Below are positions 7,064-63,200 of a DNA stretch of 64,000 nucleotides, piece by piece. The stretch spans positions 36,372,101 through 36,436,100 of the forward strand of contig CM073321.1 in NCBI GenBank assembly GCA_037043015.1, in the 5' to 3' direction. This stretch comes from Bryum argenteum. Its lineage: Eukaryota; Streptophyta; Bryopsida; Bryales; Bryaceae. The stretch's first letter is position 1. Each line of letters opens with the position of its first letter. The notes beneath the pieces are model-generated. The model had not been told where the DNA came from. It did no database searches and saw only the letters and a list, made by a program, of their open reading frames with translations. The translations under genes were made by a program, and so were the position numbers.

Positions 7064-8032
7064 TTCAACTCGAGTCGAGTTGAATACAGTAATGACTGAA
7101 CCTCTCCAGTTTTATATATTTGCTAATTCGATCCAGGGATCAGAAATAGAAGGAAAGCATTATGAGAAAAAAAAGATGTATGAATAGATTCAACTTGACT
7201 CGAGTTAAAATCCACGGAATAGTAATCCTACAATAACTAAAACAATCATTATTGTAGAATCTGGTACTCAAGATACTTAAGGCATTTTAAGTGGCACGAG
7301 CGTCTCTATGAGTTAAAAAGTATCTATAAATTGACACCAAACAAAAACATATATATGCGATATATCGTATACGAGTTTATTTAGACTTAAGAGTGTCTTT
7401 AAGTTGCTTCTAGGTCGAAAATATATTTTTGAATATCCACAAATATTTAAAGCGAATTCATTGCACGGTTGAGTATATCTCTAACTCTAATTTAACTTGA
7501 ATTTAGTTAAATATTACTGGGGTGATTAAAATATCACGTGGCGCAGCCGGAAATCCGTTCCGTGAATTTCAACTCGAGTCGAGTTGATCACTCGATTCCG
7601 GAAAGAGATTATCTTCTCATGGATAAACCAAAGGACCTGATGATGTCCAATTCGACTCGAGTCGAGTTGAATATTAACACCTAGAGATATAGCATTCTTG
7701 ATTCTGTGAATAATATTGATACTTAATGAATATATCTCCAATTAGGTGATAATTCATATTTAACTCGATTCGAGCTAAATATAATTGGGCTGATTACAAT
7801 GTCAAGTGTTCCTGACGAATATCCATAGTCACTGTGAATTTCAACTTGACTCGAGTTGAAATTCCACACCAATACAGGGAGCATCCCCTTATTAATAATC
7901 CAACTGAAACTAGAGGATTTCCCATTTCAACTCAACTCGAGTTGAATATCAACTCCCATGAATATATCATTCCTAATTCTGACACCATGTCTGATACTTG
8001 ACGAATTACAATTTAACTCGATTCGAGTTGAA
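7064..8032. repeat. A-type palindrome array in the DUF7869-like gene's intron
   Basis: Eight 21-bp odd palindromes at about 7064, 7189, 7568, 7651, 7759, 7840, 7926 and 8012. The consensus is half-site TTCAACTCGA, a central base, then the reverse complement. 7064-7084 is perfect; others carry one to three changes. The copy at 7759 is a hybrid with one A-type arm (TTTAACTCGA) and one B-type arm (TCGAGCTAAA). The sequence between sites is AT-rich and unrelated. The array lies upstream of the main exon of the minus-strand gene, matching the intron array of the B copies. Confidence 0.9.
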
Positions 8033-8079
8033 ATTGTACAGTTGAAAGTTGACATCTATATACAGAAAATAGGAGACAC

Positions 8080-8893
8080 TTACAAAATTACAGCTAAACG
8101 CGGATTACGAGGGTGAATGGCAGGAGTCCAGTCACGAAGACACCAATCTACCGGATACCGTGGTCACCGAGCGCCATCAGTCCCCACAGCAGGTTACCGC
8201 GGCACCAGATTTCCCCGAGATAGTGGCCCAGGATGACACCACAGGTACCGAGCAGGAGCGTCAGCAAGGTCAAGGTATGGACATACCGGAGGAGCAGTTA
8301 CAGGATCGCGTGCACATCCCGGAACACCTTACCGACACCGAGCAGACACCACAGGCATCGCCGAGGGTAGCAGAGGAGAAGGAGCAATCACCAGCACCGA
8401 CATCCACAACGACATCCATGGCACAGCCATCAACCCCGGTAACCCCTAAAATTTCATTTGCAGCTCACCGACAGGCATTGATACAGTTATCACATGATAA
8501 CACTTGGCATGTGGAACCTGAGAATGACAGCGATGCCGATGAGGAGTACCGGGATGCGCACGATGAAGTTCAGAAATACTTCAACAACCACCCCGATTTG
8601 GCCCAATGTTTTGCAGATCACACGGCTAGCGACGTTCAGTGTCCGGGTTGTAACAAAATGCTGGGCAAAACAGTCCACGATATCCATGAACACGCCAACA
8701 CAATTCGAAATTGACACTTGCTGCACAGGGGCATTGCCGCGGCTATCCGATCGCAGTACGACGATGATCGCCTCCACCACGCCGACAACAACAATGTCCA
8801 CGGGAACAGACTCGTCCCGACCGGCGACCAGCGGAGCGACGTGCCGGCACTAAGCAATCCGGGACGGATTGCGCTCTCACAGGGAGGGCAAAA
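8080..8893 (+). mobile_element. LTR retrotransposon 3' internal fragment
   Basis: This stretch ends in a polypurine-like AGGGAGGGCAAAA directly before the TG that starts the LTR at 8894. It contains the frame at 8160-8714. The base composition is GC-richer than the surrounding intron, and the palindromes stop at its left edge. It is read as the 3' end of an LTR element's internal region. The left boundary is estimated from the composition change. Confidence 0.55.
8160..8714 (+). CDS. Retrotransposon-associated protein fragment with C2H2-like tail
   Basis: An open frame of 184 codons, probably a fragment because coding character seems to extend upstream. The first 130 residues are Gln/Glu/Pro/Thr-rich and probably disordered. 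The end has VQCPGCNKMLGKTVHDIHEH, a Cys-x2-Cys followed by His-x3-His, which looks like a small zinc finger. It precedes the LTR as an envelope-position or extra ORF would in a Ty3/gypsy-like element. I do not recognise the family. It could also be the end of a polyprotein. Confidence 0.45.
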   Translation: MVTERHQSPQQVTAAPDFPEIVAQDDTTGTEQERQQGQGMDIPEEQLQDRVHIPEHLTDTEQTPQASPRVAEEKEQSPAPTSTTTSMAQPSTPVTPKISFAAHRQALIQLSHDNTWHVEPENDSDADEEYRDAHDEVQKYFNNHPDLAQCFADHTASDVQCPGCNKMLGKTVHDIHEHANTIRN

Positions 8894-9698
8894 TGTTACC
8901 CGACTGACGTCATCGGGTAACCTCGGCGGCCAAAGCGGGAGCAGCAGCGGCAACGGAGATAGCAGCACTTTTTCGGTGGAGGCACCAGCAGTTAACTGCA
9001 GATGCCTCGGCAGTCGATAAGGGCACCGTTCGGTTTCAGGGATATCCGCGGCAGCCGTAGTATAAAAGGTTGTAGAAAATAGGAGAGAGACACTCGTTGT
9101 AGTCACCGTAGCAGGATATGTTCAGTTTATCTTGGCAGAACGCTTGAATGTACTCCGTTGTTATCAATTGAATACAAAGGCCATGAGCCACAGTCTTTCT
9201 CTCCCATCCTTGTGTCTCCTCATCTCTCACCTGCTTACTCCGAACACCGAGGCTTGCTTGGTAGACTTGGCGGCAAGAACCCTAATCTTTGTCTTAGATG
9301 TTCTACACCCACCCACCTACCTTCATCGCTACAGTATCACCGAGGTTACCAAGGAAGGTCCGGTAGACAGCCGGACCAGGTTACGGGCTTCGGTGACCTC
9401 AGCTGTTGCCACGGTTAAACCTCGGTACCCCCCCCTCTTTTCCCTTCAAGATCAGTACTACCCACCGATTCTATTCGTGGGTAAAGTAAAAATAAGAAAG
9501 AAGAAGACGACTGAAATGCCCCTCCTTCCGCAGCACAACCAATGTTGCCGAAGTCAACGCTCGGCCTTTTTGGCTACTCCCTTTGTCTCGTTAGACCGAG
9601 CATAGCTCGGCCTCCCTTGTTATCCACTGCCATCCCAAACCTGCTACCTCCAGCGGATGAGCTCGTAAAGCACTCCATCCTCGTTACCTAGGCTAGCA
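8894..9698 (+). repeat. LTR (solo copy within fragment)
   Basis: The proposed LTR begins TGTTACCCGA and ends TAGCA, giving the usual TG...CA ends and a length of about 805 bp. It is preceded by a polypurine-like tract. It is followed by TTTTGGCGACCATGCTGGGG, which looks like a primer-binding site, and 75 bp later by a gag-like start codon. The first 27 bases contain an inverted pair, GTTACCCGA and TCGGGTAAC. A TATA box sits about 165 bp inside. No second LTR was found in the window, so the ends are inferred from context. Confidence 0.6.
9061..9067 (+). promoter_or_regulatory. TATA box of the LTR
   Basis: TATAAAA, followed by GGTTGTAG, in the first quarter of the proposed LTR. This is the position expected for the U3/R promoter of an LTR element. 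Confidence 0.5.
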
Positions 9699-9773
9699 TT
9701 TTGGCGACCATGCTGGGGATGGAGTGTTGAGTCATCCAGCAAAACAGGAAACAAAAACGTCAAACACGACGCA

Positions 9774-10169
9774 ATGCCTCCACGAAAAGCAACAGAAAGA
9801 ACCGCGGAACCTGAGGAGGTTATACCCCAAGAAGACCTAGATACCACGAGAGAACTTCTCCAATGGATGAAACAACAAATGACAGATTTGGTGGCAAAAA
9901 ACGACGCCACCAATGCCAAGATCGAAATATTAAACTCACACTATCTCCAAGGGGTAGGAACATCAACGACTGTTCCGCCCATCGTTACCATGGCCGGACC
10001 ATCACAGCTACCACCGATTGATCCAAACATAGCCGCTTCTATGGCATCAAGGGAAAGGGATCGGCTCATCAAGCTACCAAAGATACCTTACCCAATCTTT
10101 GATGACTACGGAGATATAATTTCAACTCGACTCGAGTTGAATTCGTTCACTAAGGACCAGTATGCTTAA
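9774..10169 (+). pseudogene. Gag N-terminal fragment
   Basis: The frame starts MPPRKATERTAEPEEVIP and continues with a helical segment (ELLQWMKQQMTDLVAK) and a Pro-rich linker up to LIKLPKIPYPIFDD. This is the layout of a Ty3/gypsy-type Gag N terminus, and it begins 75 bp after the LTR next to the primer-binding-site-like sequence. The coding similarity stops at about 10110. The next bases are an A-type palindrome (10121-10141) and intron-like DNA, which run the frame on to a chance stop. Capsid, zinc knuckle and polymerase are missing. Confidence 0.55.
10121..10141. repeat. A-type palindrome at retroelement junction
   Basis: A perfect 21-bp site (half-site TTCAACTCGA, central C). It marks the return to element A sequence on the right side of the retrotransposon fragment. 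Confidence 0.9.
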
Positions 10170-10649
10170 ACATTCTCCTGGAAATATCGGCGGTATTTAC
10201 GGACCTCAAAACCAGCTAACACTCGATATTATACAGTGACGTATAAGGTGCGGTGTGGACCTCATCTAGTGAATGAGCACATATTCCAGGACATAATCCC
10301 CACAGACACAGAAAAGTTATCCAGCGACCAGTGGATAACGTGCATGCTATTAATAGTAAGTGTTGAAACACCGAGGAATTGTGCCTTGCACTCAATTTGC
10401 AAACCACGCTCACCTGCGATTTGCAGATTTCGAAAGGAAAGTAGGACTCGCAATTGAAGAAACCACAGACAACAATCAGTAGCTAATACAAAAGTCGAAA
10501 AATACATGACGGGCAACTGTCATAACTTGAAACTGAATCAAACTAATACATCATGCGCCTTTTCCACAACACTAAAACCTGTAAATGAGAAACTACATCG
10601 GACGCAGTCAGCACCAACTCAAACTCCTTCTACACAAATACGCAACCTT

Positions 10650-10890
10650 GAACACACACATCGGAACAGAATATCATGTTAAACGCACCTTGAGAGCACC
10701 GACGAGAGTGAGAGAAAATGAAAGGAAAGGTTGAGAGACTGACTAGCCCGACCCCAGCCCGACCTCAACCGCTACATCGTGAGAGTATCCTCAACGCCCG
10801 ATATCGTGCAAAAAGCCGACGCATTTTGTCACAACATGAATTTTGCCTTCATAAGGCTCCGAAATAGGATTCCACTTTTTAAAACGGGAT
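10650..10890 (-). promoter_or_regulatory. Probable 5' leader region of the A DUF7869-like gene
   Basis: On the minus strand CTCAAG is followed by a donor-like GTGCGT at 10688-10683, so an untranslated first exon may end at 10689 and splice to the acceptor at 7014. Upstream (10735-10830) the sequence is GC-richer than its surroundings and contains CCCGACC repeats. The placement is by analogy with the B elements and is not proven. Confidence 0.3.
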
Positions 10891-11279
10891 TTTGAATATA
10901 TTAGGCGGCAACGATGTTTCAGCGGGAAACTAATTTTGGAAGGAAACCCATTTCTAAATATGGATTTTTTATATTTTGCAAACGATTGTGTCTTAAATCT
11001 TTCTCCATAAAATTAAATATTTCATACATAACTATGACTTGTGGAAAAAAAGTTCAAATTCGTATTCATATATTTATTGAATAAATATAATAATTACAAA
11101 ATTAGAGTAACTAGTGTAATTGAGAACATTCCATTGACAAATCTTTACTTAAATAGGCCTAATCAATAGAATCAAATATGTGGTACACTACTTACAAAAA
11201 ATACCTTTAAAAAACATAGAATACTTATGGAATAAAAATAGCACAAATAAATGGGCATATGAATAAATATAAATATACA

Positions 11280-11444
11280 TATTATGTTAAATACATAATA
11301 TTTCAATTCAAGTATAATTGATTTTTGATATAAATTTGATAACAAATTTAGCATTTATTGTGCTAAACTAATATAGAATGAAAAAAGTGCAATTACATTC
11401 ACATAAGAGTAAAAATATATATAGGAATAAATAATTTATGTATA

Positions 11445-11480
<36 letters not shown>

Positions 11481-11665
11481 TAGATAGATACGAGTATAAA
11501 TGTTAAATACATTATATCTTTACTCAATTATAATTGTTTATAACATAAATTTGAATACAAATTAAGCATTTATTGTGCTATCTTAATATAGAATGAAAAA
11601 AGCTCAATTACATGCCCATGAGAGTACAAATAAATATAGGAATAAATAAAAAAATAAAAAAATAA

Positions 11666-11702
<37 letters not shown>

Positions 11703-12330
11703 TAAAAATTTATATGAATAAATATTTAAGTACGTATATATATACATAGATACTAGTATAGAAGTCAACTTTATAAAATCTTGATTCAATTATATTCGAT
11801 AATAACATAAATTTGATTATATATTGAGCATTTATTGTGCTATCTTAATAAAGAATAAGGAAAGTGCAACTATATGCCCATATGAGTTCAAATATGTATA
11901 TATATAAATAAACAAATAAATACATGTATACATAAATATAGATATATATATATATATATATGAGTACAAATGTATATGAATAAATAAATAAGTACGTATA
12001 TATACATAGACACTAGTATAGAAGTTAAATTCATATAATCTTAATTCAGTTATATTCGATAATAACATAAATTTGATTATATATTGAACACTTACTGTGC
12101 TATCTTAATATAGAATAAGGAAAGCGCAACTATATGCTCATACAAGTTCAAATATGTATATATATGAATAGATAAATAAATAAATGTACGTATATATAGA
12201 TAGATATACGAGTACAAATATATATATAAATAAATAAATAAGTACGTATATATATACATAGATACTTATGTAGAAGATAAATTCATAAAATCTTAATTCA
12301 ATTATATTAATTTCAAGATAAAGTTGAATA
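11280..12330. repeat. AT-rich tandem repeats with microsatellites
   Basis: Four related units of about 216-261 bp share a phrase like GCATTTATTGTGCTATCTTAATATAGAATGAA at about 11351, 11567, 11828 and 12087. Inside the units are expanded TA, ATAC (11440-11475), GATA and AAATAA runs of different lengths. The block lies in the non-coding centre of element A. The small hydrophobic frames here are microsatellite translations. Confidence 0.8.
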
Positions 12331-12624
12331 CAAATTAAGAAACGAAGGTAATTCTCTCTATATTTACTCTAGTTCGTTTTGTCATGTGTTTTTTGTTTTT
12401 AACGAAACACTACATTAAATAATATATTAGCAACATCATTAGTATTTTAATGTTATACTCCTAGTATAGAAGTTATAACAATTGTGCATGATCAACATTT
12501 ACATAGCATTTGAGTGTTAATAATTAAGTTATAATTCCCCATTGTGAGAGGCCATGTCTACACGTATCCATTTTAGCAATGGTGACTTTACTAGTATATA
12601 TATTGTCACGGACATACATTAGAA

Positions 12625-12735
12625 ACTTCTAGAAGATGGAGAAGCGTCTCGGAGCGTCTCAGAAGGCGCTTGAGAAGTCTCGGATGTCGCTTGAGAAGTC
12701 TCGAAAGTCGCTTGAGAAGTCTCAGAAGAAGCTTC
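12625..12735. repeat. Short tandem repeat, GCTTGAGAAGTCTC type
   Basis: Three clear units of about 24 bp (CGCTTGAGAAGTCTCGGATGT and variants), preceded by two diverged ones (AAGCGTCTCGGAGCGTCTCAG). The block is GC-richer than its AT-rich surroundings. Confidence 0.7.
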
Positions 12736-12777
12736 CTATGTGGTAGTATATATAGGAGGCAACATAAATAAATAAAA

Positions 12778-12990
12778 AGCAACAAGAAAATAAACATGCA
12801 CACATAAAAATAATAAGCTTCATAATCTTTGAAAAGTTGGTAGATAGGAGATATGTTTTTATCTTGAGCGTCAAGAGGACAACGAGGACCTTACTAGTTT
12901 AGGGTTAGTTAAGAAATAAGTACTGAGATATGAGCATTATCAATGTTGAATTAATACTTGAGTGTTGACAATGAAATAATAATGATTGTT
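12778..12990. repeat. Direct repeat, left copy
   Basis: This stretch (CAACAAGAAAATAAAC ... GATATGAGCATTATCAA ... GTGTTGACAAT) recurs about 805 bp downstream at 13583-13780 with roughly 80-85 percent similarity by eye. The direct repeat lies in the non-coding centre of element A. Confidence 0.65.
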
Positions 12991-13582
12991 TATTATTGTT
13001 TGTATCTAACTCATATAAATACCTATAGACATTTACTTTGTAATTATCCGTTAACTCCTAATGATCTAAGATGACCAGATCAAGCTTTTGCTATTTTGGG
13101 TACTGTAGATGAATAGGTTGAAAGTAATAGTTTAGTTTAAATTTTTTGATGGATGCTCCCTCTACTCCAAAGTTTATATGGTTAATTTTGCAAAGCCAAT
13201 TTCCAGTTTGTGAGTCTTGTCTTGTTTTTGAACTACGTATACTCGAGTAAAGAACAGATACAAACATAATTATAATAAACATAGTATTGTTTGAAAGAAT
13301 TGTAGACACATGATACTTTTTTAGCTTCTACGTCTTGTTGATAGGGACATTTCTTGTATAAGAGAGTTGGGTTATCACTGATAGATCTGGCGATCCTTCC
13401 TATCAACCTACGTACCTTTCTCCTACAAACATTCCTACCTATCTAACTACCTACCTACCAGCATACAAACGTACTTACCTACTCACTTACTTTTTATGCT
13501 TTTTGGATTACATAAAAACAAAATGTCAACAAAGCAAAAATAACGAACCAAAAAGAACGAAAAATAATTTTAAAAAAAAAAC

Positions 13583-13785
13583 CAACAAGAAAATAAACAC
13601 GCACGGATAAAAATAATGAGCAGGACAACATCTTAGAAGTTGGTGGAGAGAGGATAATTTTTTTGCTTCCTTCTCCAGTCAACGATGACCTTATTGGTTT
13701 AGAGAACGTTAACTAATGGGTAGTGGGATATGAGCATTATCAAAGTTGAATTAGTGCTTGGGTGTTGACAATTAAATAATGTATT
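13583..13785. repeat. Direct repeat, right copy
   Basis: Second copy of the repeat at 12778-12990. Between the copies (13380-13490) is a run of CTACCTAC-like phrases. No coding sequence is seen between 12.99 and 14.04 kb. Confidence 0.65.
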
Positions 13786-14039
13786 TTTTTTTGAGTTTGT
13801 ATCTTATTTCAATATATAACTACACACAACTTTTTAGTAATTAAAACATGGTATTTCCGCTAAAACGTTTTATCGAATACTACACGTACTATTGTAAAGT
13901 GTTAGGGAGCCTAAATGTTTACGATACAATACATATAGTGTTAGAATAGGCATTTACTGAACTAATCTTCTTTTCAAAAAAGTAAACTAGAAAAAATAGT
14001 TAGAAATTAGTGAAAAATGGTATGGAATTTAGTGTAGTG

Positions 14040-15318
14040 TAGAGACGGGCAGACATGAAAAGGGCAAGAAATTGCTGGCCGGAGCAATATTCGGCGCGGG
14101 CAAAGTGTAAGGTGGCCCGAGTAGGCGGAGGCAGTGTTAAAGGCAGCCCGAGCAAGATTAGGGGCAGCCCGCTCGAATTGTGGCCGGGAACGGAGAGTGG
14201 GGGGCTAGGGTTTGGCCCCCACTGTAATCCTCGTCTTTCTCGCTTCTGCGCTCCGCATGCTTGTTTTTGTCTGTCGGCAAATTAGTTTGTGTTTTCTTGA
14301 ATTCTCGCTATCGCTACCTTCTGGCCTCGAAAGTCGCTAGCTCCTAGCCTCAAAAGTAACTATCTCCTGGCCTCGAAGGTCCTGTTCGTTCATGTTTATA
14401 TAGTCCTTGTTATCTACTCGCCTGTCTTTGTACATTCTCCTAGACGCTTCTTGCTCTGCTCTCCGACGCTTTTTGCTTCTCTTAGCTCTGCGCCTCAACC
14501 CTGTTGGCTTACGAAGGTGTAGACTTCTCTTGCGCGACGTTGTTGGCTTGTGAAGCTGTCTTCTATGCCTCGAAGTGTCTGCTTTTCGAGATTTTCGCGG
14601 CATCAAGTGAGTCGCTTGTTTCAACGGCGCTTTTGCAGCTTTGCCATCGCTCACCCAAGTTCCCGAACTTCACGACCTTCTCTGTAAGTTAATTGCCACT
14701 GTTAGTAACTTTTGGTTTGCAATTTCATTCTGTGGTGTTTGCTTATTTTGTTCATTTCTGTCAGTTTTCCAAACTTCGAGAGTTGAATTTGACTAGCTTT
14801 TAGGATCCTTGAAATTTGAGTGACTACTTTGGAAAAAATGAGGAGGAACTTTGAATGTAGATGTCTGATTTAGGAGAAAAAGAGGAAACTGGCTTGCTGG
14901 AGCTGGTTCATAAAATTTCTGAACCCTAATTTTTAAGAGGAGCTCTGGAATTTGAATGTTCAAAAAAAAAGGGTGGATGTTTTTGAGCTGTTTAGGGTTG
15001 ATTCGGAGCGGTTCACAAACCCGTTCAATTGCTAATTGGTGAGAGTTGTCAATGAGGTTGTACTCAGTGATTTTAGATAATTAGAATGCGTATGTTGACT
15101 TCCAGATCATCGATTTGTGAATCAATTGCAATTGAATTGGTCTACTATGATATTTTTCCATACTTGAATCTGCGTTACTGTTGAGAATTTTGTTATGAAT
15201 CAGTCATTGTAAATTTTCTTGTTCTAATCATTCATTGTTTGCTTTAGGATTAGGACAAAGCCGAGGCTTGTTCAATTAATTTTGGAATCCACAGTCTAGA
15301 AGGGAAGCAGACAAAAGA
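14040..15318 (+). promoter_or_regulatory. Probable promoter and 5' leader of the A large-protein gene
   Basis: Base composition shifts to GC-richer sequence from 14045 to 14690, then returns to AT/GT-rich intron-like sequence, and the first proposed ATG is at 15319. A donor-like TCTCT|GTAAGT near 14682 suggests that a 5' untranslated exon ends there. The frame at 14055-14285 and the basic frame on the other strand (14337-14654) have no motif and I treat them as chance. Confidence 0.35.
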
Positions 15319-15512
15319 ATGGGTGAGTAATCACTACTTTAATCTCGCTCAATCTGACTAAGTTGTAGCAGAATAGTTTGGCATTGGATTTCTCTGTTCG
15401 CATATTATTCAAAATACAAGTATTGTACATACTTAGCGTAGAGAACAGTTCAGCTCGATTCAACCGTAGTCAAGTTGTGTTGATGTTCGAAAGATTCAAT
15501 AAAGATCAGCAG

Positions 15513-16510
15513 TTCAACTTGACCGGAGTTGAATTGGAAACACATTTTATTACCTGTGCATACCAACACCAGTATAGAATACAATCAGATTCAACTCGGG
15601 CAGAGTTGAATTTTCCATTCAATTCATTTCTGAGAGTTAAAACGCGAGTTCTCGGACCAAAGAGAATTCAACTCGACCCGAGTTGAATCTGTGATCCAGA
15701 ATCCTCTTAACGGTCAATGTCAAATTAAACTTGAACAATTCAACTCGATTCGAGTTGAATCAAGAAAACACGAGATGTGAGGGTGCTCCAATGCTTCCGC
15801 TATAACATTGACGTAGTAGATCCAATCAGTCTCTTCAACTCGAACAATTTAACTCGACTTGAGTTGAATCGATAAATTACTAGCTACAATCGCAGTGTAC
15901 ATATTCAACTCGATACGAGTTGAATCAGAGTTGCGCGTGTGAGCAACTAGAAAATTCTTCAACTCGACTCGAGTTGAATCGATAAATTCCTAGCAATGGT
16001 ATTGTGGTACATATTCAACTCGATTTGAGTTGAATAACGGTAGCGCACGTGCGTAACTAGAAGAATAATCCAACTCGATTGGGGTTGAAGTAGAAAGATT
16101 ATGTACGTTTCTTCAAGCAGTTAAAAAAGCACCATAATATTCAACTCGAGTCGAGTTGAATTATTTAAGCATAGGAATCACTAAATGCAGACACGGTATC
16201 CATATAGTTGAAACATGACATGACAAACTCAACTGAAGTATAGCACAAATCCTCTGACTAAATAAGACAGGAACATGAGTGTATACAATCAACTCGATTC
16301 GAGTTGAAATGAAGAAGATTTATCTTCAAGTATAATTCAACTCGACTCAAGTTGAAAGTATTCAAGCACTGTATGAGGAGATCACAACACTCCTCGAAAA
16401 ATACATTCAACTCAAATCAAGTTGAATTTTACTTCTGTGGACAGTTGCTAACGATATTTGTAATGTAGTAGAAACGGAAAGAATGCTATTTCAACTCGAT
16501 TCGAGTTGAA
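15513..16510. repeat. A-type palindrome array in first intron
   Basis: About fifteen sites between 15513 and 16510 (15513, 15590, 15667, 15739, 15848, 15904, 15958, 16014, 16069, 16140, 16288, 16336, 16406, 16490 and weaker ones). Spacing is often 54-80 bp. Roughly five are perfect. The array fills the intron between the tiny first exon (15319-15322) and exon 2 (16568). Spacer phrases repeat partly (GATAAATT.CTAGC..., GCGC.CGTG.G.AACTAGAA), so the array grew by local duplication. Confidence 0.92.
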
Positions 16511-18006: not shown

Positions 18007-18103
18007 TTCAACTTGATTCGAGTTGAATTGTGTCCTACAATACTAACGATGATATTTCGATTCCATTCCAGTAGTAACCTATTTCAACTCGACTCGAGTT
18101 AAA
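18007..18103. repeat. A-type palindromes in intron 2
   Basis: Two sites, 18007-18027 and 18083-18103, lie just inside the intron that starts at donor 17992. The corresponding B introns carry B-type palindromes at the same gene position (26882-27035 and 51020-51248). Confidence 0.88.
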
Positions 18104-20913: not shown

Positions 20914-20974
20914 CTGCACCTTCAATTAATGGCAGATCGCCTGTAGAAGCCTTTGAGAGTTGTTGTTAGCCTAG

Positions 20975-51019: not shown

Positions 51020-51248
51020 TTTAGCTCGAATCGAGCTAAACCAAAGGGATCCTCGTTCAGAATACAGCATGTTCAGTTTAGCTCGAATCGAGCTAAACTA
51101 TAATGCATTGCAGTTTAGCTCGAATCAAGCTAAACAGTATTGCATGTGCAGTTTAGCTTGATTCGAGCTAAACAGTACTGCATGTGCAGTTTAGCTCGAT
51201 TCGAGCTAAACAGTACTGCATGTGCAGTTTAGCTCGAATTGAGCTAAA
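51020..51248. repeat. B-type palindromes in intron 2, expanded 38-bp tandem (copy 2)
   Basis: Six sites at 51020, 51077, 51114, 51152, 51190 and 51228, the last five in a 37-38 bp period with GTACTGCATGTGCAG between them. Copy 1 has four sites, so the tandem unit changed in number after duplication. Confidence 0.9.
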
Positions 51249-52762: not shown

Positions 52763-54436
52763 GTTTAGCTCGACTCGAGCTAAACTGACTAGTAATCATC
52801 AGTCTATTTTCTGATCGTGAAGTTTAGCTCGAATCGAGCTAAACTTTATATTTTATGATTACTTGTTTAGGGTCGCAGTTTAGCTCGACTCGAGCTAAAC
52901 TGAGTGAGCTATTAGGGCGAGTTTGTTGGCTTCGTTTAGCTCGAGTCGAGCTAAACTACCTCGACAGGAGTATGCATATTCAAATCGACCTAAACTTCAA
53001 CATTTAAAGTTAGAAATATTGAAGGTTTAATCCTAGAAACGAAGGGTCAAAGTTTAGCTCGAGTCGAGCTATACTTAGTTTAATACACTGTGAGTTGGTT
53101 ACCTCAGTTTAGCTCGATCACAATAGTCTGTTATTGACATGTTTTATTTAGCTCGAATCGAGCTAAACTTTATTCTTTGACAATCAGAAAATTTACATTA
53201 GCTCAGTCTTCTTTCGGGGTAATTGCAGACACACTTAGCGTCACAGTTTAGCTCGAATTGAGCTAAACTGAGTTACATATTGGGCGAGGTTTATTCATCA
53301 GTTTTGCTCGACTCGAGCTAAACGAATTAGATTTGAAATGATTATAATGATATCGTTTAGTTTAGCTCGAATCGAGCTAAACTTCAGAGTTTTAGGATTA
53401 GAAAAAGAACATTAGCTCACGTTTTTTAGGTTCATTCAGACTTACTCAGGGTCTTAGTTTAGCTCGACACGAGCTAAATTGAGTTTCATAATGGGCGAGT
53501 TGGATGCCTCAGTTTAGCTCGACTCGAGCTAAACTTACCATATTTCAAATAACCGTAATGAAATTGTTTAGTTTAGCTCGAATCGAGCTAAACATTAGAC
53601 TTTGAGGACTAGAATATTTACATTAGCTATCTTACATTCAGACTTACGTAGGGTCCTAGTTTAGCTCGAATCGTGCTAAACGGATCTACATATTGGGCGA
53701 GTTTGATACCTTTGTTTAGCTCGACTCGAGCTGAACTTTCCAGATTTTAGATGATTTTATTGAAATCGTTTATTTTAGCTCGATTCGAGCTAAACTTTAG
53801 AGTTTGAGGACTTGATTGTTTTCATTACCTCACTCTAATTTTTAGTAAATTCAGTCTTACTTAGACTCTAAATTTAGCTCGAATCGAGCTAAACTGAATG
53901 GATATTTTATCTCTCCAATCTATAAGTCTAGTTTAGCTCGAGTCGAGCTAAACTGAGGCACATTTTGCGCCAGTTGGATTCCCAAGTTTAGCTCGACTCG
54001 AGCTAAACTGGTTAGGTTTCTTTAATATTTTTGTAACGTGTAGTTTAGCTCGATTCGAGCTAAACGTTTATTCCTTAAGGTTAGTCAGAGTCTAAGTTCT
54101 ATTAGTATTGATTAGGTATATTATAAATAATTTAGGGTCACAGTTTAGCTCGAGTCGAGCTAAACTTACTAACAACCGGTGCAAGTTGGGTGCCTAAGTT
54201 TAGCTCGACTCGAGCTAAACTGATTGGACTTAGGTAGTCTCTCATGTGAACGTATAGTTTAGCTCGAATCGAGCTAAACTTCTTAGTCTAAGGTTGAAAA
54301 TTGTTATGTTTCTTAGTTCATTCCCACCAAGGTTCATTCTACTCACTCTAAGGAGCTTAGTTTAGCTCGATTCGAGCTAAACTGAGTTACAATACGCGGT
54401 AGTTCGATGCTATAGTTTAGCTCGACTCAAGCTAAA
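52763..54436. repeat. B-type palindrome mega-array in first intron (copy 2)
   Basis: About 24 palindromes in intron 1 (54509-52707). The AGT / ACT / AAT-or-ATT order is kept in the right part (54143/54198/54258) and is less regular on the left. Spacers have diverged from copy 1 much more than the palindromes. Some sites are damaged (53051, 53303, 53458, 53658); one at 53107 keeps only one arm. Confidence 0.95.
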
Positions 54437-54559
54437 CTTTTAGCATCACCGTGTCCATTTCTACAGAGTTAGAGGTGGTTTCAGTCTTGCAAGTTTTTTG
54501 ACTTAGCACCTTTCTCCCATTCCAGCCATTCCTGTAAGCTAGAGTCCAATTTTTTGATG

Positions 54560-56250
54560 ATCTTCTTCTGCCTTGTCGTATATCTGCACAACATACGAGC
54601 GTAGAGTTGAATAACAAAAGCAATAACAATGTTCAAACTCAACTGCGATTCCAATATCCTTCTGTGATTACATACTCTGCTGTCAATACTAACATCGCTA
54701 TGAATACAAAATCTCGAAATTCTGCTGGCAAATCAAACTACAAACTCTGATGTTATTGTCTAGGAAATTACAAACCTTCTAAACTTCATTTCATATGTTT
54801 TATCATTCAAAGTAGTGATCATCAACTCAATCTAGAATCACTCGTCTGTGCATGATACAATTCTGCTACATGGTAAAATGAAAGAAATGCATACTGCAAT
54901 CTAGTCCACTGATATTGGAAATGCTATCTTACCACAAAAATTAAACGTAATGCCGATGCGCTTCGAGCAACAAGAGTCAATACTTTCAGCTCATTCAATT
55001 TGCAATTCCGTATCCTGTAAGCATGAGTTGCAGAACTGGTGAAACACAACCACATGTACCTCAAACCCTACTACAAATCCTTTACAAGCGAGGCACTTTG
55101 AACACTAGAATATACATAGTTGATAAACCCTAAACTAGACCAGGTCTTCTTTCGTACTATTTCTAACCTTGCAAAACGAGATTTCAGCCTCATTTTCAAG
55201 CAAACTACTAGAGTTGTTTGAGTTTGAATTGAAGTCTCTAATCTCATCACTGCTGACCTAGAAGTGCAAAATTCGATTCTTTGATTACTTACAAAAAGCG
55301 TGAACAATTCTTTGGATCTTTCGCAAACTAGTTCAACTTAATCCTTACAAATTCTAGACTCAATTACCGATTCACAATCTAGTATTTGAAATACAAGACT
55401 CGCAGCTCGGGACTAAAATGACATGAAATCGAAAAGGTGATAAACGCAGTCAAATCGAAAATACAAAAATGAAATCACAATTACGAGAAAATGAATTCGC
55501 AAAAATACGTAATTGAAATCGAAAATCGATATTCGAACCCGGATGGACAAAAAACGCACTGTCGAGGCTCTCGAAAGCCGCACGGCGACTCTCTCCCGTG
55601 AAATGTAACCTCCTCCGAATCGCTTTGTCCTCTAACAACGACGCTCCTCTCCTCGGAATGCGACGCTCCTCCCCGCGGAATGCGACACACCTCCCCTCGG
55701 ATGCGACACACCTCCCCTCGGATGCGACACACCTCCCCTCGGATGCGACACACCTCCCCTCGATCGCGACGCACCTCCCCGCAACGCCCACGCACCTCCT
55801 CCAACGTCGGCGCACCTACTCTCAAAAGCAAGTACTCTCTAAACTAAGTGCTCCTCCCAACAGCGCCTCTCCAACAGCAGCGCCTCCAACAACGCTTCGC
55901 GTGCAACGTCGACGCACCTCCCCTCCTCCTACGCCTTTTTCCTCATGCACCGCAAACCCCACTGCAGCCCCTACCGAAACACCGAAACCCCGAAACTTCA
56001 AAAACTACCGAAACACCAGAACCCCGAAACTACCAAAACTACTCTACGTCACTCAAAAAAACCCCACACCCAATTCTAAGTTCTACTCGCAGGAGCTACG
56101 GAAAGCGCGAAAATGCGAAAAGCAGAAGCAAACAGCTGCGAAAAAGCTGAGAAGCGCGGAAATGCCGGAGCGACAGTGCGAAGTGAAAATGTGAGAACTG
56201 AAACTGAGGGTGGGAGAAAGAGAGTGGGAGGTGAAAGGCGGCGGTGGTAC
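54560..56250 (-). promoter_or_regulatory. Probable 5' leader and promoter region (copy 2 large-protein gene)
   Basis: Intron-like AT-rich sequence to about 55540, then a GC-richer block. Inside it, a 15-16 bp unit (GATGCGACACACCTCCCCTCG and variants, 55650-55780) repeats about seven times. The block ends in the purine-rich GAGAAAGAGAGTGGGAGGTGAAAGG at 56214-56238, as in copy 1. Open frames across the repeat on both strands are repeat translations. Confidence 0.4.
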
Positions 56251-56464
56251 ATTCATGATGTGTACACAATCATCATGATTACTACCGAGGCCATCATTTT
56301 AACTGCCAAGGCCATCATTTTTACTGCCGAGGCTTTCATTACTGCCGAGGGAATCATTTTTAAAAAATTTGATTTATTCCACCATTTTCCACTTGAATTT
56401 AGTACTCGTATTCATATTTTCTAACTTCTAAATTTTAATTCATTCGTGAACTTTCAGTACTCGT

Positions 56465-57215
56465 CTTCTTTTGAGCTACATTAGAATCTCAATTCAAACA
56501 CACTAATTTTTAATTCTAATTGTATTAATATTAGTTTCCATTCACTTTTATTACTCATATTTTTTAGAGCAACATTAGAATGCTAATTCAAATAGGCTAA
56601 GTTTAATTCTAATTTTTGTATTAATATTAGTTTCCATTCACTTTTATTACTCATATTTTTTAGAAACAACATTAGAATGATAATTCAAATAGGCTAAGTT
56701 TAATTCTAAGTGTAATAATATTAGTTTCCATTCACTTTTATTACTCATATTTTTTAGAGCAACATTAGAATGCTAATTCAAATAGGCTAAGTTTAATTCT
56801 AATTCTTGTATTAATATTAGTTTCCATTCACTTTTATTACTCATATTTTTTAGAGCAACATTAGAATGCTAATTCAAATAGGCTAAGTTTAATTCTAATT
56901 TTTGTATTAATATTAGTTTCCATTCACTTTTATTACTCATATTTTTTAGAAACAACATTAGAATGATAATTCAAATAGGCTAAGTTTAATTCTAAGTGTA
57001 ATAATATTAGTTTCCATTCACTTTTATTACTCATATTTTTTAGAGCAACATTAGAATGCTAATTCAAATAGGCTAAGTTTAATTCTAATTCTTGTATTAA
57101 TATTAGTTTCCATTCACTTTTATTACTCATATTTTTTAGAGCAACATTAGAATGCTAATTCAAATAGGCTAAGTTTAATTCTAATTCTTGTATTAATATT
57201 AGTTTTCTATTTAGT
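56465..57215. repeat. 95-bp tandem repeat, eight copies with 286-bp higher-order unit
   Basis: AACATTAGAAT recurs at 56475 (variant), 56571, 56668, 56761, 56857, 56954, 57047 and 57143. Distances of 97, 93 and 96 repeat exactly, so a three-unit block of 286 bp was itself duplicated. Copy 1 has only three units. Confidence 0.9.
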
Positions 57216-57219
57216 CTTG

Positions 57220-58870
57220 TCAATTTGTTGGAACTAATTTGATGTTTAATATTGTGTACTCTATTTTTAGTATGTGAAATTTACATTGCGATTCTAGTCA
57301 CCAATTTCAACCATGTTCATTTTCAACCATGTTAATTTAAGACGCGTCTATTTGCCAAGTGCTTCGAAGTGCCATGTGAAACACCGTGGGGAAACTGTAT
57401 CCATGACGAGCTTGCTCACGCACCGTGCGCAATGTAGTTACCGCAATTGATTAAGTGGGAGCGGAATTACTTTAACCCTAATTACACGTAAAGAGGCAGG
57501 AGTCACACCTAGAATTGGCCCCTGCGTAGCGAATCGAGCACTTGGAGGCTGCTCCCCTCCGTGGAGTTGGTGCTACAATCGTTTCATCGATAGATCATTG
57601 TAGGATTGATCACCGTGATTCCGCTCCCACTTGGTTCCTCCATTGAGTCAATCAGGTAGTTGCTACTGTAGACTGTCACAGCAAGTTTTTTATGGATATT
57701 TTTTAAATAATGCTATAAGAAATACGCTGAGATTTGAATTTTAAAGAATTGGTTGTGGTTTAAATTTTAAATTTCGTTATTCCTTGACATGTGCCTAGTT
57801 TTCCCTAGCACAATATTTAATATGTGAAATCATTATTACTTTTTAATTAGTATATGCTATACATACGTAGTATTCTTTAATAAAGATTTAAGTGTTTAAT
57901 TTCCAAGATTTGTCCAATCATTTTAATGTACATAAGTATCACTCTTGAATTCAAATCTTCGTACGTGGTTTATTTTCCAAAGTTTGGAAATCACAGTCAT
58001 GTGAAGTATTGCATTCAAGTATAATAGGTTTTATTGGTTTCTAACTTTTGTCCATAAGTAATCACTACATATTTCCAAATAATGCCATGTATTCCAAACA
58101 TACCTTTACATAGAAATTACATGTACAAGTATAGGATTTATTCCAAATATATAATATTTCCTATATTGGTAATTATGCCTATTTAATACATTATTATAGG
58201 AATACATTATGTATAGTAATTTATAGTACGTTATTTAACATCATTATGAATATAGTGCAAAATTTAATTATAATTTTGAACGTTATCATCTTATAGCATG
58301 GTTATAGTTAACTACAATTATAATGATATTATTATTTATTACTAATAACTATTTACGTTCGTATATAATTTAAACTAAATAGCTTAGATGAGGATAAAGT
58401 ACTTAAAATATTAATTTGGAATAATGAGCACATTTCACATTAAAGGGTGATCATAGTACATTAATGTCCGTTATAAATGTAAGGATCTATTTCACTTAAG
58501 ATGATTATTTCGTTTCAATTTCTTTATTAGAAATCATTGACATAAGGTCACCTATAATTGACCAAATATTTTGATTTATGCTTTGATGTAGCATAGCAAG
58601 GTATTCTAACTATTTGCACACAAATTGATAGATAATTTAAGAATTTCTATCAGAGTTACTTAACTTCGCGCATAAAACCTAGCATAAATAATTAAGAATA
58701 TAGACTTGCTCTTGCAAGATGATTAGATGAACAAAAGCCTAAAATTATGAGTGATAGCAAACGTACAAATTAAAGTTTTCGTAATGCTGTAGATGTTGTA
58801 TGTGATGCTTACAATAGCAATCCAAGTTAAGTATTGAGGATTCACAGTATAGTGTTTTGGATTTAGAGTT
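57220..58870. other. AT-rich element centre (copy 2)
   Basis: Counterpart of 32300-33950. No coding sequence. Similarity to copy 1 is about 90 percent by eye with many small indels. Confidence 0.5.
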
Positions 58871-58874
58871 TTGG

Positions 58875-59028
58875 AGTTTAGGATATAGGGGTTAGGTTTT
58901 AGGGTTTAGGGTTTAGGGTTTAGAGTTTAGGGTTTAGGGTTTAGGATTCAGGGTTTAGGGTTTAGGGTTTAGGGTTTAGGGTTTAGGGTTTAGGGTTTAG
59001 GGTTTAGGGTTTAGGGTTTAGGGTTTAT
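58875..59028 (+). repeat. Interstitial TTTAGGG telomeric tract (B copy 2)
   Basis: About twenty-two units, including a run of at least ten perfect ones at the right end, so it is purer than the copy 1 tract. It has the same orientation and the same flanks (CACAGTATAGTGTTT.GGATT to the left, GCAATTTAGTTAT.TTTCCATG to the right). Confidence 0.95.
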
Positions 59029-59029
59029 G

Positions 59030-59870
59030 CTGTGTGCAGAATGGTGCAATTTAGTTATTTTTCCATGTTGTTATTCCTTAAGCTAACAATTTCGCTAAAC
59101 TTCTGTATATAGTTTTCAGAATATTACCCGTTGAATACATTATATTCCATACATTCATACCTTGATTTTGATGTAATAATATATGATTTATATTATTTGT
59201 TGCAAAGCAAGTTGAAGGCCTTTTATGAAGTAGCATATTTATTTGGAGTTTTACGTTTTGATATAATTTTTTATGCACCTAAGTTAATATTGCGTTGAGA
59301 TTGGTAGTCAAATTGTTTCAGTTTGTTATTTTTGAGAATTCAATATTTCTATGTTTTTGAGAAAACTCTTTCATATTGACAATGAATCATATAGAAAACC
59401 AAATTTTTTACGAAACATGACTTGCTATGATTAATACTCATATTAAATGTATTCAATATGAGGGACTTTGAAATGCCACAATACGCTTAAGAAACACCCA
59501 AGTGGAGAAGATGCATAATTACAATCCATTATATACAATATATCCATTGAAGTTGACATGTGAAACATACTATATCTACATGCAATAAAACCCCATGTAG
59601 TGAGACTAATAATGAATCGAATTACATTAAGCAATACACATAATCCTCAATGTCCATAAAAACAATTAAATTACTCGTTTCTCTATTCATTTAATAGAAC
59701 ATTATAAATTTATTTCCTAACTACGGTGAAAATGAGTATTACTAACTTAGAAGATTATAACTTTCAAACTTAAACTATTTGAGTATGCCTAACTTTTAAT
59801 TGCATGGTCAATAATGGCATGATAACTTTGAAATGCATGCTTTCATTGGAAGCCTATTTCGGCCAGTGAG
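59030..59870. other. AT-rich element centre, right part (copy 2)
   Basis: Counterpart of 34092-34950. No gene seen; the minus-strand frames at 59078-59634 are not conserved in copy 1. Confidence 0.5.
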
Positions 59871-59979
59871 TGTAATATTACGATTGATCTTGTAGCAGGA
59901 ATGTACAGAATTCGTCGAAGTAGGCAGGAATGGCGGGTGGATTCCCGCTTGAATTCACGAATGCTACTTCTATGTAGAA

Positions 59980-60005
59980 ATATAGGGAGAAGAAATTTTC
60001 CCGCC
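59980..60005 (+). promoter_or_regulatory. Promoter of the copy 2 DUF7869-like gene with E2F-type site
   Basis: AGAAATATAGGGAG (weakened TATA-like box) followed by TTTTCCCGCC at 59996-60005, in the same place as in copy 1. A second site about 45 bp downstream has decayed to TTTCCCACC. Confidence 0.4.
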
Positions 60006-60225
60006 GGAATCTCACCACCGATTTTCCTGACAAATCACATTTATATTTCCCACCTCATCTCGAGATAAGGTGGAGCGCGGGAAAGGCCAGACGAATCTGA
60101 ATGACCTCTGAGAACGTGGCCATGTTGATTCCTTTTTCCTCATTTTCTGAAGGTGATGCTCCTCCTTCGCGGTTTCGGGCTCCGTCGGCGTTTCAGATTC
60201 CAGCACGCTGCACGTAGGGATCAAG

Positions 60226-63200
60226 ATGAGCTCCACACAAGCGTCAAGGTAAGACTCCACGCATATGGCAGTTTATTGAATTGTGTCTCTGGTATCGTAC
60301 GTGCTTCTTGCATTTTACAATTCAATTTCGGCGTCATAAACCCTAAACCCAGAGAAGCGTTCCACATGCGTTGTGGACGCCTTTGCTGTGATGCTTAAGA
60401 TTGTGTGTTTTCAATGTAAGTGCAGGCAAGCCTTCATTTTCAATGCATCCGTCTCGAGTGCAAACCTATTGCTTTTAGAGAATTAGGAGAAGCGGTACTC
60501 CGAAATATGCGCCGTAATTATCGGGAGAGAAAGAGTGAAGACATTTAGCTCGAGTCGAGCTAAATATCAGGACTACCACAGTGACGCAGTTTAGCTCGAA
60601 TCGAGCTAAATTGCAGGGCTTGTATAGTCGAGTAATTTAGCTCGACTCGAGCTAAACTACAGGACTTTGCAAAGTTGAGCGATTTAGCTCGACTCGAGCT
60701 AAACTATGAATAATTGTATACATAAAAGTTTAGCTCGATTCGAGCTAAACTACACGTTCAATAGAGTTTGTTGAAAGTTAACCAGTTTAGCTCGAGTCGA
60801 GCTAAACTACATAATCGAGCTGGCGCAAAGTGTGCCTCAGTTTAGCTCGACTCGAGGTAAATTAGACGTTTACTTTTGAGAAAATTGAAACCCATTCAGT
60901 TTAGCTCGAGTCGAGCTAAACAAAGGCACCCCACTCGCCCAATATGTAACTCAGTTTAGCTCGACTCGAGCTAAACTGTGCCCCTAAGTATGTCTGAATT
61001 TACCTAAATAGAAGAGTGAGATAATGAAAACATTCTAATCCTCAAACTATGAAGTTTAGCTCGAGTCGAGCTAAACTTAACGATTTCAGTACAATCATTT
61101 GATATCTGGTAAGTTTAGCTCGTGTCGAGCTAAACTTAACGATTTCATTACAATCATTTGATATCTGGTAAGTTTAGCTCGTGTCGAGCTAAACTGAGGT
61201 ATCAACCTCGCCCAATATGTAACTGAGTTTAGCTCGATTTGAGCTAAACTGTGACCCTAAGTGTGTCTGAATTTACTTAAAAAGAAGAGTGAGTTAATGT
61301 ATATATTCTAATTCTCCAAGTACGAAGTTTAGCTCGATTCGAGCTAAACTTAACGATTTCATTACAAGCCTTTGAAATCTGGTAAGTTTAGCTCGAGTCG
61401 AGCTAATCTAAAGATTCAAAGTCTCCCAGTATGTAACTCAGTTTTGCTCGAGTCAAGCTAAACTGTGACTCTAAGAAAGTCAGAATTTACCGATATAGAA
61501 AAGAGAACTAATGTAATTAGTTAAATCCTTAGACTGTGAAGTTTAGCTCGATTCGAGCTAAACTAACTGATTACATTACATACACTTGAAAGCTGAGACT
61601 TAGCAAACTCGAGCAATTTAGCTCGATTCGAGCTAAAGTATACGACCTCTGAAAGTCGAACACTTAAGCTCGAGTTGAGGTGAATAATCCAAATTACCTA
61701 GTTCAAGAATTAAATTTGGACTTGATTTATATAAGATGGTTTACCGTCTCGACTCGAGCTAAAGCTAAGATATATTGTAGTTGATAAGTTTAGCTCGAGT
61801 CGAGCTAAAGTGTAACTAAGGCATCCGATACTACGTCGGTTAGCTCGATTCGAGCTAAATTGCAGTATAATCGATACTGAAAGTGTTAGCTCCATTCTAG
61901 CTAAACTGTCGAACTCATTTTCGCTAAGAAGTTTACTTGGAGTCCAACTATTCTGTTTATCAATCAATTCTTCGAGGCGTTTAGCTCGATTGGAACTAAT
62001 TAGCGTTACATGTCAATATCTGAGGTTTACCTCGTCTTCAGCTAAGACCATGGACTCTATTAACTATGGTGGATGTGATGACATACACTTCTTCAAAAAT
62101 CGACGTTAAGTTTGTGACACTCCAATTTGTGACATTCATTTTCAATAAATCCGTTTCAAACTACATGTGCTCGCCTTCTACAAGGCGTTGGTTAGATCAA
62201 CTGGAGCTATACTATACAAGGAGTCGTTATATCAATATTGTCAGGGACTTTGCTGTGATCAATAGCCTTTCTTATAACTTGTTTCCATGTTCTTGTGCAT
62301 CTGCAGCATGGACACCTCATCCGCTGAGGAGGAGTCCGTTGTTCCACCAGTGAATCCGGATATTCCAGAGTTTGAGGTTGTTCCACCTCGGCTCTGGTCG
62401 GGAAGAACTGTGGCGTTACTTGACAGCGATGGTCTCAAAATTGCTGAAGGTTTACCTCGGAATTTACGATCTAGTGCCCTTACTGATACTTCTGGACCCC
62501 TCGGTGAATCGGTTATTGTTGTGCAAATTTCAACTTTGTTTGTACCTGTGGACGATCCTGACGACTGGATTTACTCCTTCAAGTCGTGGCCCATTGATCG
62601 AGTTCTTTTTGACGTTTGTAAGTCATGTTGCACCATACCCGGTGGGATGTGTACAACCGATGGGTTAAAGAACAGGGTCGGGTCAATGGTAGACGCACTC
62701 GTACGTATGACAATTCCAAAAGGAATGTTCCTACTCCAGCACCTCGCAGAGCAAAAATCTTGTTGACTCAGCAGTCAATCAACGAAGTCGCATCGAATAC
62801 CTGTTGTAGCCGAAACTGTGTCCAACACTACCCTAGAGACAAGATAAAGGTTCTTAGGTCTCGCATGTATGAAAACACAACAGTGCAGTTCAGAAATCAC
62901 ATCAAACTAGATGTTCATCGACAATTCCATACAAACGGTAATGGGCGGAATGTGGTGACATTTGAAGGCATAGACGTATGTCCGTTAGCGTGGATGCAAA
63001 TTATGGGTGTTAGTTCTAGCATCTTTTATCGCAACGCTTTGAACGCAGCTGCTGGGTTCGAAGCCCAACATCATGGGAATACTGGAAAACGAAAGCCCAG
63101 AGGTCATACTGTTGTAGCTTCTGCTGTCTTGGGCGCATTACTTGCTAGGCATGCTGACCACATGCCTCACAGGTCTCATAGCCTCTCCTCAGGGGAGAAG

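Follow-up and report, generated by a model that had tools for sequence, protein, structure and literature searches.

Family-specific palindrome arrays in large DNA transposons of the moss Bryum argenteum: candidate operators for an element-encoded ParB-fold protein

A 64,000-nucleotide stretch of Bryum argenteum DNA (the window) carries dense clusters of an odd palindrome, raising the question of what the palindrome belongs to and what might bind it. The pattern TNNANCTCGANTCGAGNTNNA had 89 exact matches in the window, compared with a mean of 0.00 in 100 dinucleotide shuffles. A relaxed scan, which required at least 16 of 20 arm bases to match, with each arm scored against the better of two half-site types (A and B) and at least one arm ending in TCGA, detected 136 palindromes in the range 7064 to 61980, while five first-order Markov sequences gave 0, 0, 0, 1, and 0 sites. 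The same scan found none at positions 1 to 7063 and 36377 to 46226, and no palindrome was present in 28.9 kb of scanned flanking DNA. An earlier note on this DNA had described about 130 clustered copies confined to three element copies, which agrees well with these counts, the sites being divided between the elements A (30), B1 (46), and B2 (60, or 59 with stricter scoring).

These elements are DNA transposons of about 16 to 20 kb with terminal inverted repeats, encoding a DUF7869 protein, an NLI-interacting-factor-like (NIF-type) phosphatase, and an accessory protein. The DUF7869 protein is probably the transposase; PF25273 (DUF7869) was the sole Pfam match for this role among the ORFs scanned. 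Target duplications, compared with the Repbase superfamily list quoted in PMC9587614, were of 4 bp in both elements with two ends read (CTCA and TATT, not TTAA). Searches of solved structures with the DUF7869 and NIF proteins returned nothing useful. The features of the three elements are listed here, with palindromes taken from the relaxed scan.

4792..21979, minus strand: element A, by blastn to the C9 A element; transposase on the minus strand, accessory gene on the plus strand
4792: transposase-side inverted repeat of A, AACACAATATTCATTA
5790..7038, minus: A-family DUF7869-type transposase fragments
7064..8032: array upstream of the A transposase, 9 palindromes
10121..10141: lone A palindrome
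15667..16510: array upstream of the A accessory gene, 11 palindromes
17066..18000 (end approximate), plus: A accessory exon 1 region, ParB-type (VNRQHCVESS...ISAFYNRVNH)
18007..18103: first accessory intron of A, 2 palindromes
18438..19299, plus: A accessory exon 2, methyltransferase-like, frame broken in this window copy
19522..19865: second accessory intron of A, 6 palindromes
20893..20913: A palindrome adjoining the phosphatase gene
21987..38984, plus: element B1; left-end inverted repeat AACCTCGTATTCGTTATATTGGGA, right end truncated inside the transposase gene
22805..23584, minus: B1 NIF-type phosphatase gene (PF03031)
24037..24057: B palindrome between the B1 phosphatase and accessory genes
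25066..25446: second accessory intron of B1, 5 palindromes
25406..26847, minus: B1 accessory exon 2, methyltransferase-like, frameshifted
26882..27035: first accessory intron of B1, 4 palindromes
26996..28516, minus: B1 accessory exon 1, ParB-type domain
28553..30201: array upstream of the B1 accessory gene, 23 palindromes
35606..36376: array upstream of the B1 transposase, 13 palindromes
36499..38982, plus: B1 DUF7869 (PF25273) probable transposase, C-terminus cut
45546..64000 in the window (full element 45546-65614), plus: element B2, with a TIR at each end and a 4-bp target duplication, CTCA
46227..46247: B palindrome near the B2 left end
46924..47704, minus: B2 NIF-type phosphatase gene
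48157..48177: B palindrome between the B2 phosphatase and accessory genes
48288..49190, minus: B2 accessory exon 3, acidic, coiled-coil-like tail (by eye)
49204..49583: second accessory intron of B2, 5 palindromes
49582..50985, minus: B2 accessory exon 2, helical region then methyltransferase-like domain
51020..51248: first accessory intron of B2, 6 palindromes
51209..52726, minus: B2 accessory exon 1, ParB-type domain in its C-terminal part
52764..54436: array upstream of the B2 accessory gene, 24 palindromes
58850..59027: telomere-like (TAGGGTT)n array within B2; B1 has a similar one at 33925-34087
60544..62000: array upstream of the B2 transposase, 23 palindromes
62308..64000, on to about 65188, plus: B2 DUF7869 probable transposase

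The missing accessory-side end of element A was probably cut by the B1 insertion, and since the accessory-side terminus of the C9 A element was not found in the stretch examined either, no copy of A complete at both termini was observed. Across four elements of families A, B, and B', the arrays were located at five shared non-coding positions: one upstream of each of the transposase and accessory genes, one within each of the two accessory introns, and one next to the phosphatase gene. Only 6 of their 163 sites lay inside protein-aligned regions and 3 partly inside, all within about 35 bp of the region edges. The arrays are tandem and differ between copies, with recurrent spacings of about 46, 55-59, and 100, and the inverted repeats that were read lack the palindrome. 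There may be a third family at C3:6058224.

Genome-wide, the motif search returned 7,992 matches, against 1 for the reversed control, and the exact B site occurred 5,878 times, against 0. Among the first 100 matches listed, 99 had an element gene fragment within 11 kb, the remaining one being C1:480281; the tie between motif and element family proposed in the earlier note was thus upheld. The pattern was absent from six 10-kb stretches picked irrespective of elements, where a uniform spread would give only about 2 matches. The motif arrays were restricted to elements, in introns, intergenic and upstream DNA, a VANDAL-type layout.

The same note had held that the arms are better conserved than the spacers, and an alignment of 232 sites gave this result. 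Column identity was mostly 82-100% in the arms (range 59-100%, the four columns below 82% all belonging to the A set of 21 sites), 23-47% at the centre base, and mostly 21-50% in the spacers, with the exception of two to three arm-adjacent columns in the B families (50-96%). Because these columns are conserved, the B palindrome is closer to 25 bp, AGTTTAGCTCGA-N-TCGAGCTAAACT. When 11 pairs of related copies were compared over the best aligned piece of each pair, differences were found at 78 of 1885 arm, 1043 of 9178 spacer, and 26 of 94 centre positions, although the pairs share sequences and so are not independent, and similarity-based site finding favors conserved arms. All 214 convergent exact half-site pairs in the DNA examined had one base between the arms. 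The two half-site types noted earlier are family-specific, with few mixed sites (e.g., 7759 in A and 29073 in B1) and a diagnostic difference at half-site position 5 (A against G); the A form had to be corrected, as A sites use both TTCAACTCGA and TTTAACTCGA.

Structure prediction gave a ParB-type (ParB-CTPase) fold for the accessory exon 1 product and a degenerate Rossmann-type, N6-adenine-methyltransferase-like fold for exon 2, with pLDDT 64-86 for the helices after the ParB-type domain (residues 21-150 of the exon-2 model), at the place where ParB partition proteins carry their HTH DNA-binding domain. Sequence searches of Pfam and the PDB found no significant match to the accessory protein (PF20188 appeared once, E 0.063, and was disregarded). 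The phosphate-binding P motif of ParB, GxxR, is replaced by G-Q-H-S at residues 381-384 (register by eye); in 39 sequences, Q382 and H383 were invariant and G381 and S384 were kept in at least 90%, and, going by sequence, the phosphate-binding arginine appears to be lost. The catalytic motif of the methyltransferase appears to be lost in the same way: no DPPW/NPPY-type motif was present, the matching strand ending in G-I/V-I-D-F-R in most of 23 exon-2 sequences (correspondence by eye), with D311 and F312 invariant. The top Foldseek matches of the exon-2 model included many chains B of METTL3-METTL14 entries, which we take to be METTL14, and also MTA1. METTL14 is one of the inactive partners in the MT-A70 family; the likeness is one of fold, with an identity of only 8-15% over the alignments listed, and unlike METTL14 the accessory protein sits in a transposon. 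A giant-virus origin was rejected: the exon-2 model matched viral structures weakly, with no match at E <= 0.001, and neither the strict B palindrome nor the Ceratodon homologue P0007 was matched in viral contigs, a set from which records near the window's genome were perhaps excluded.

By analogy with VANC and VANDAL, we see an even chance that the palindromes are parS-like operators for the element's own ParB-fold protein, with a role in anti-silencing. A dimer of the accessory protein would bind each palindrome, with each subunit reading one arm of 10-12 bases on either side of the single base, and the element would keep dozens of sites at the two promoters of its divergent transcription units as well as in the accessory-gene introns. 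Dense loading of the protein over its own element, possibly with spreading, would then keep the element transcribable against host silencing. The arrays, their family-specific sequence, fixed spacing, conservation, and placement shared by A, B, and B', together with the predicted folds, are in hand; from these we infer binding, dimerization, and spreading, and an effect that would be anti-silencing and not self-repression.

VANDAL elements are Mutator-like. For VANDAL21 and VANDAL6 of Arabidopsis, anti-silencing by VANC has been demonstrated, as Hosaka et al. 2017 (PMC5735166) report, whereas for the moss element it is our proposal. The moss and VANDAL elements are both DNA transposons with arrays of a short, family-specific motif in introns, in intergenic DNA, and upstream of the transposase gene, a fast-evolving accessory protein, and array turnover by tandem duplication (PMC5735166). 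The parallel drawn in the earlier note therefore stands for the layout of tandem arrays but not for the candidate binding protein, since VANC contains DUF1985/DUF287 (PMC5735166), and the moss protein is ParB-type with a degenerate methyltransferase-like domain; Pfam detected neither DUF in the exon-1, exon-2, and exon-3 frames or in P0159. The motif differs too, the VANC21 motif being a 9-base YAGTATTAY arrayed in one orientation (PMC5735166) and the moss motif an odd palindrome of 21-25 bp, and the moss transposase is of the DUF7869 type.

With ParB-parS, Noc, and KorB-OB (PMC2680271, PMC11790492, PMC12704722), the moss system has in common a predicted ParB-type fold and palindromic operators. 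The KorB operator, as described there, has odd dyad symmetry around a c/g centre and the outer half-site TTTAGC, as in B sites, a resemblance of 6 bases that may be due to chance; its arms lie 8 bp closer together than those in the moss, where the setting is a eukaryotic transposon, GxxR reads GQHS, and no parA-like family was present among the ORFs scanned. Fusions of the ParB fold to N6_N4 methyltransferase in phages and to MT-A70 in archaea are described in section 7 of PMC12704722. They combine the two domain types also predicted in the moss, where a single spliced gene (exons 1 and 2; predicted splicing) apparently encodes both. The moss protein, by contrast, belongs to a eukaryotic transposon and has DFR in place of a DPPW-type catalytic motif. 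No words starting with "transpos," "plant," or "moss" occur in the main text of that paper.

Alternatively, the ParB-fold protein could be an autorepressor like KorB on plasmid RK2, limiting transcription of its own gene and the transposase gene and hence copy number. This is unlikely, although it has some merit: arrays lie at both promoters, and KorB, a structural relative with a similar outer half-site, is a sliding-clamp repressor (PMC11790492). However, dozens of sites with intronic extras would seem to exceed the needs of simple repression, and the layout fits VANC targets better (PMC5735166).

There is a smaller chance that it is the DUF7869 transposase that binds the palindromes, which would then serve as internal enhancers or end-pairing sites. 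Subterminal motifs are bound by the transposases of Spm/En and Ac/Ds, and here the transposase also differs between the A and B families and has arrays upstream of its gene. The site positions nevertheless led us to reject subterminal transposase sites, as the palindromes show no clustering toward the element ends (for B2, the distances are 0.7 kb for one near the left end and about 3.6 kb for the one closest to the right end), are mostly associated with promoters or introns, and do not recur in the inverted repeats read.

Slimmer still is the prospect that the arrays are enhancers through which the element exploits a host transcription factor. Enhancers are typically promoter-proximal tandem sites with a fixed dyad, as found here, but within a single host the half-sites differ between families A and B, and the genome-wide excess of exact B sites over their reversed control argues against it, as do the zero pattern matches in the six element-blind stretches, although with a uniform spread only about two would fall there.

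Unequal crossing-over or gene conversion could have spread the palindromes as a neutral satellite without a function, which would account for tandem arrays that differ between copies and for their recurrent spacings. This is very improbable, as A, B, and B' have their arrays in the same five places, and we rejected it because homogenization would take the centre base and spacers along, yet both are free while the arms are kept.

That the palindromes act as RNA or DNA hairpins (e.g., hairpin small RNAs or splicing structures) is scarcely credible. In its favor, every site has the potential for a 9-bp stem and a 3-base loop, some sites are intronic, and 134 A sites contained 18 cases of a position changed in both arms, 16 being symmetric (12 of these 16 being C/T alternation at position 3, with about 9 expected by chance). 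Against it, most sites lie upstream of genes, and we set the reading aside because 262 B sites contained only 6 such cases, 3 symmetric, so that the sequence is kept and not pairing alone.

Returning to the operator reading, a broader version is possible, and we hold it only tentatively: that of a eukaryotic ParB/parS-like system in giant DNA transposons of plants that would form a superfamily not described before, encoding a DUF7869 transposase, a NIF-type phosphatase, and a ParB-fold protein with a dead methyltransferase. Such elements would coat themselves via a clamp-like protein at dozens of palindromes, with the dead methyltransferase and CTD-phosphatase-like proteins keeping chromatin open. 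In the open-licence PMC literature, no paper on DUF7869 was found, nor, judged by titles and abstract starts (ParB, moss, Physcomitrium, NIF, 4-bp duplication, and sex-chromosome themes), a description of the element, and the DUF7869/ParB-methyltransferase/NIF gene set would define a transposon group. With roughly 8,000 sites and numerous copies whose frames are open, the system, if real, would allow a direct test of protein/operator-array coevolution and might offer a new sequence-specific handle for epigenome editing. If the operator reading is true, mosses would harbor a second, independently evolved case of a transposon that brings its own means of sequence-specific anti-silencing or self-coating, here assembled from a dead methyltransferase and a DNA-clamp fold of bacterial type.

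The exact pattern of the palindrome, a 21-bp odd dyad of two half-sites around one free base, gave 89 matches in the window compared to none in shuffled sequences. With up to 4 arm mismatches allowed, 136 sites were found between 7064 and 61980, compared to 0, 0, 0, 1, and 0 in five Markov controls, and this relaxed scan detected no site in two parts of the window (1-7063 and 36377-46226) or within the 28.9 kb of flanking sequence, in agreement with the earlier note, which had counted about 130 element-clustered copies absent elsewhere in the window. Genome-wide (258.8 Mb, 25 contigs), the pattern had 7,992 matches against 1 for a reversed control; the exact B site was present in 5,878 copies, and the A site with exact arms (TTYAACTCGA) in 1,319, each with 0 in the control. 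Scatter unrelated to the elements is argued against by the first 100 matches listed, all in the first 1.06 Mb of contig C1: for 99 of them, all but C1:480281, a fragment of an element gene was located no more than 11 kb away. Six 10-kb stretches picked regardless of elements (L022 to L027) held 0 sites, compared to approximately 2 expected if uniform; one of them, L024, contained accessory-gene fragments. These results concern a single genome, the copies examined are a selection from the matches listed, and copy counts are lower bounds.

Self-comparison and the adjacent DNA revealed three related transposons in the window, a copy of family A and two of family B (B1 and B2). Their features, with those of a related B' element, were as follows (window numbering unless stated).

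45546-65614: B2, extending beyond the window end; inverted repeats AACCTCGTATTCGTTATA(T/A)TGGGA
21987-38984: B1; left end as in B2, right end truncated
Contig C3, 18.4 kb: B' copy; ends AACCCCATATTCGTTATA, duplication TATT
22805-23584 (B1), 46924-47704 (B2), and L038:2631-3437 (minus strand): NIF/FCP1-type phosphatase gene, also mapped in A and B'
31996-32279 (B1) and 56450-57205 (B2): AT-rich tandem repeats at the element center, units of ~93-96 bp
33925-34087 (B1) and 58850-59027 (B2): telomere-like (TAGGGTT)n arrays upstream of the transposase array
45124-45545 and 65615-66434 (stretch L009): tandem array of ~264-bp units hosting the B2 insertion

B2 is flanked by a 4-bp duplication, CTCA, within the tandem array, another unit of which has the uninterrupted sequence. 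A-family ends had the form AACACCATATTCATTAT, and no A element with both ends was seen among the copies examined; the copy on contig C9 is at least 15.9 kb, and that in the window ends where B1 starts. Another partial element, which carries the end of a transposase gene, is present at about 73306-74093 (window numbering). The AT-rich repeats at the center of the window copies number ~3 in B1 versus ~8 in B2. The B' element on C3 has a reversed 62-bp match to the telomere-like array, likewise upstream of its transposase array, near 14956-15017 of the joined locus; these arrays are possibly a telobox-type element.

A common gene plan was found in the four elements mapped from A, B, and B': a NIF-type phosphatase gene shares one strand with an accessory gene of several exons, and across the center, which is AT-rich in the window copies, lies a divergent gene for the DUF7869 protein, the probable transposase (PF25273, E = 1.8e-40). 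Named relatives were only proteins of the mosses Ceratodon purpureus and Physcomitrium patens, plus one metagenomic "uncultured Leptolyngbya" protein. Together with the presence of telomere-type TTTAGGG repeats, this suggests a moss host. The phosphatase matched PF03031, with E = 1.2e-14 for the B' protein and E = 2.9e-9 for that of B1. Its DxDxT-like site reads, by eye, LDLNGIL, which makes activity doubtful. Such a phosphatase is unusual cargo for a DNA transposon. Neither the term DUF7869 nor a description of the element was found in the open-licence papers searched; the note likewise knew of no described plant element with this motif.

Palindrome arrays occupied five common places in four elements of the three families. 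Two of these lie upstream of genes, that for the transposase and the accessory gene, two more are the introns of the accessory gene, and the fifth adjoins the phosphatase gene. Only 6 of 163 sites lay inside protein-aligned regions and 3 partly inside, all within ~35 bp of a region edge. The array upstream of the transposase recurred in 10/10 further B/B' copies (1 B and 9 B', from at least 54 matches) and in 8/8 further A copies (from at least 151). The half-sites there were family-specific. Upstream of A transposases, exact half-sites comprised 86 TTCAACTCGA and 35 TTTAACTCGA, with the B half-site absent; upstream of B and B' transposases, there were 192 TTTAGCTCGA, 5 TTTAACTCGA, and 3 TTCAACTCGA, plus rarer variants. 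With sites chosen by likeness to their own family consensus, position 5 was other than G in 21 of 524 B/B' half-sites (12 of them A) and other than A in one of the 268 half-sites of family A.

The claim that arms are better conserved than spacers held up, with 78 differences at 1885 arm positions between related copies compared to 1043 at 9178 spacer positions; finding sites by similarity biases toward conserved arms, and the center base, as internal control, differed in 26 of 94. Fisher tests gave p < 0.05 in 10 of 11 pairs (p = 0.72 in the other), the pairs sharing sequences and thus not being independent. Across 232 aligned sites, identity was mostly 82-100% in arm columns (range 59-100%, the four lowest all in the A set of 21 sites), 23-47% at the center base, and mostly 21-50% in spacers, except in columns adjoining the arms. 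Exact half-sites converging at a distance of up to 30 bases formed 214 pairs, and in all 214 a single base lay between the arms. All four bases occurred at the center among B1 and B2 sites in the window; C or G stood there in 204 of 262 pooled B/B' sites, which recalls the c/g center of the KorB operator. Changes at the arm CpGs were mostly transitions in B (21/24 and 17/29) and less dominantly so in A (8/16 and 7/12), a bias that weakly hints at past CpG methylation.

A dyad of fixed spacing whose central base is free, maintained in dozens of copies near promoters and introns, suits the needs of a dimeric DNA-binding protein. The fold predicted for the accessory protein is the one that binds palindromic parS and KorB operators in bacteria; it resembles ParB in this, but the nucleotide motif was not found. 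The inverted repeats examined lacked the palindrome, so the transposase would have other DNA to read. In the VANDAL system, DNA methylation is removed when VANC binds motif arrays that lie within introns or upstream (PMC5735166). The array layout here repeats that of the VANC targets described there, so that part of the proposed VANDAL precedent stood; however, the accessory-gene frames contained no domain known from VANC, and the element is therefore not a VANC/VANDAL member, although by analogy it may work like one. Going beyond sequence, conservation, and predicted fold, we infer that an element-encoded ParB-fold protein would coat its own element via the palindromes and so counter silencing. 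We favor this reading given the dyad's fit to a dimeric binder, the predicted fold, the palindrome-free inverted repeats, and the VANC-like layout. Second comes KorB-like self-repression by the same protein. The operator bound by KorB, TTTAGC(c/g)GCTAAA, also forms an odd dyad, and its outer six bases are identical to those of the B site (PMC2680271), a likeness that may be due to chance.

Contig C1 (44.1 of 258.8 Mb; 17% of the genome) held 40 of the 54 best transposase matches listed, of which 9/40 on C1 were stop-free versus 10/14 elsewhere; C1 is possibly a sex chromosome or some other region rich in elements. One further gene lies off C1.

G000:C3:6058224-6058667 (host genome, minus strand): DUF7869-type gene, 942-aa open frame, 37% identity to A over the matched part

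This gene was not among the B matches listed. It possibly represents a third family, and the palindrome of such a family could be used to test for co-evolution.
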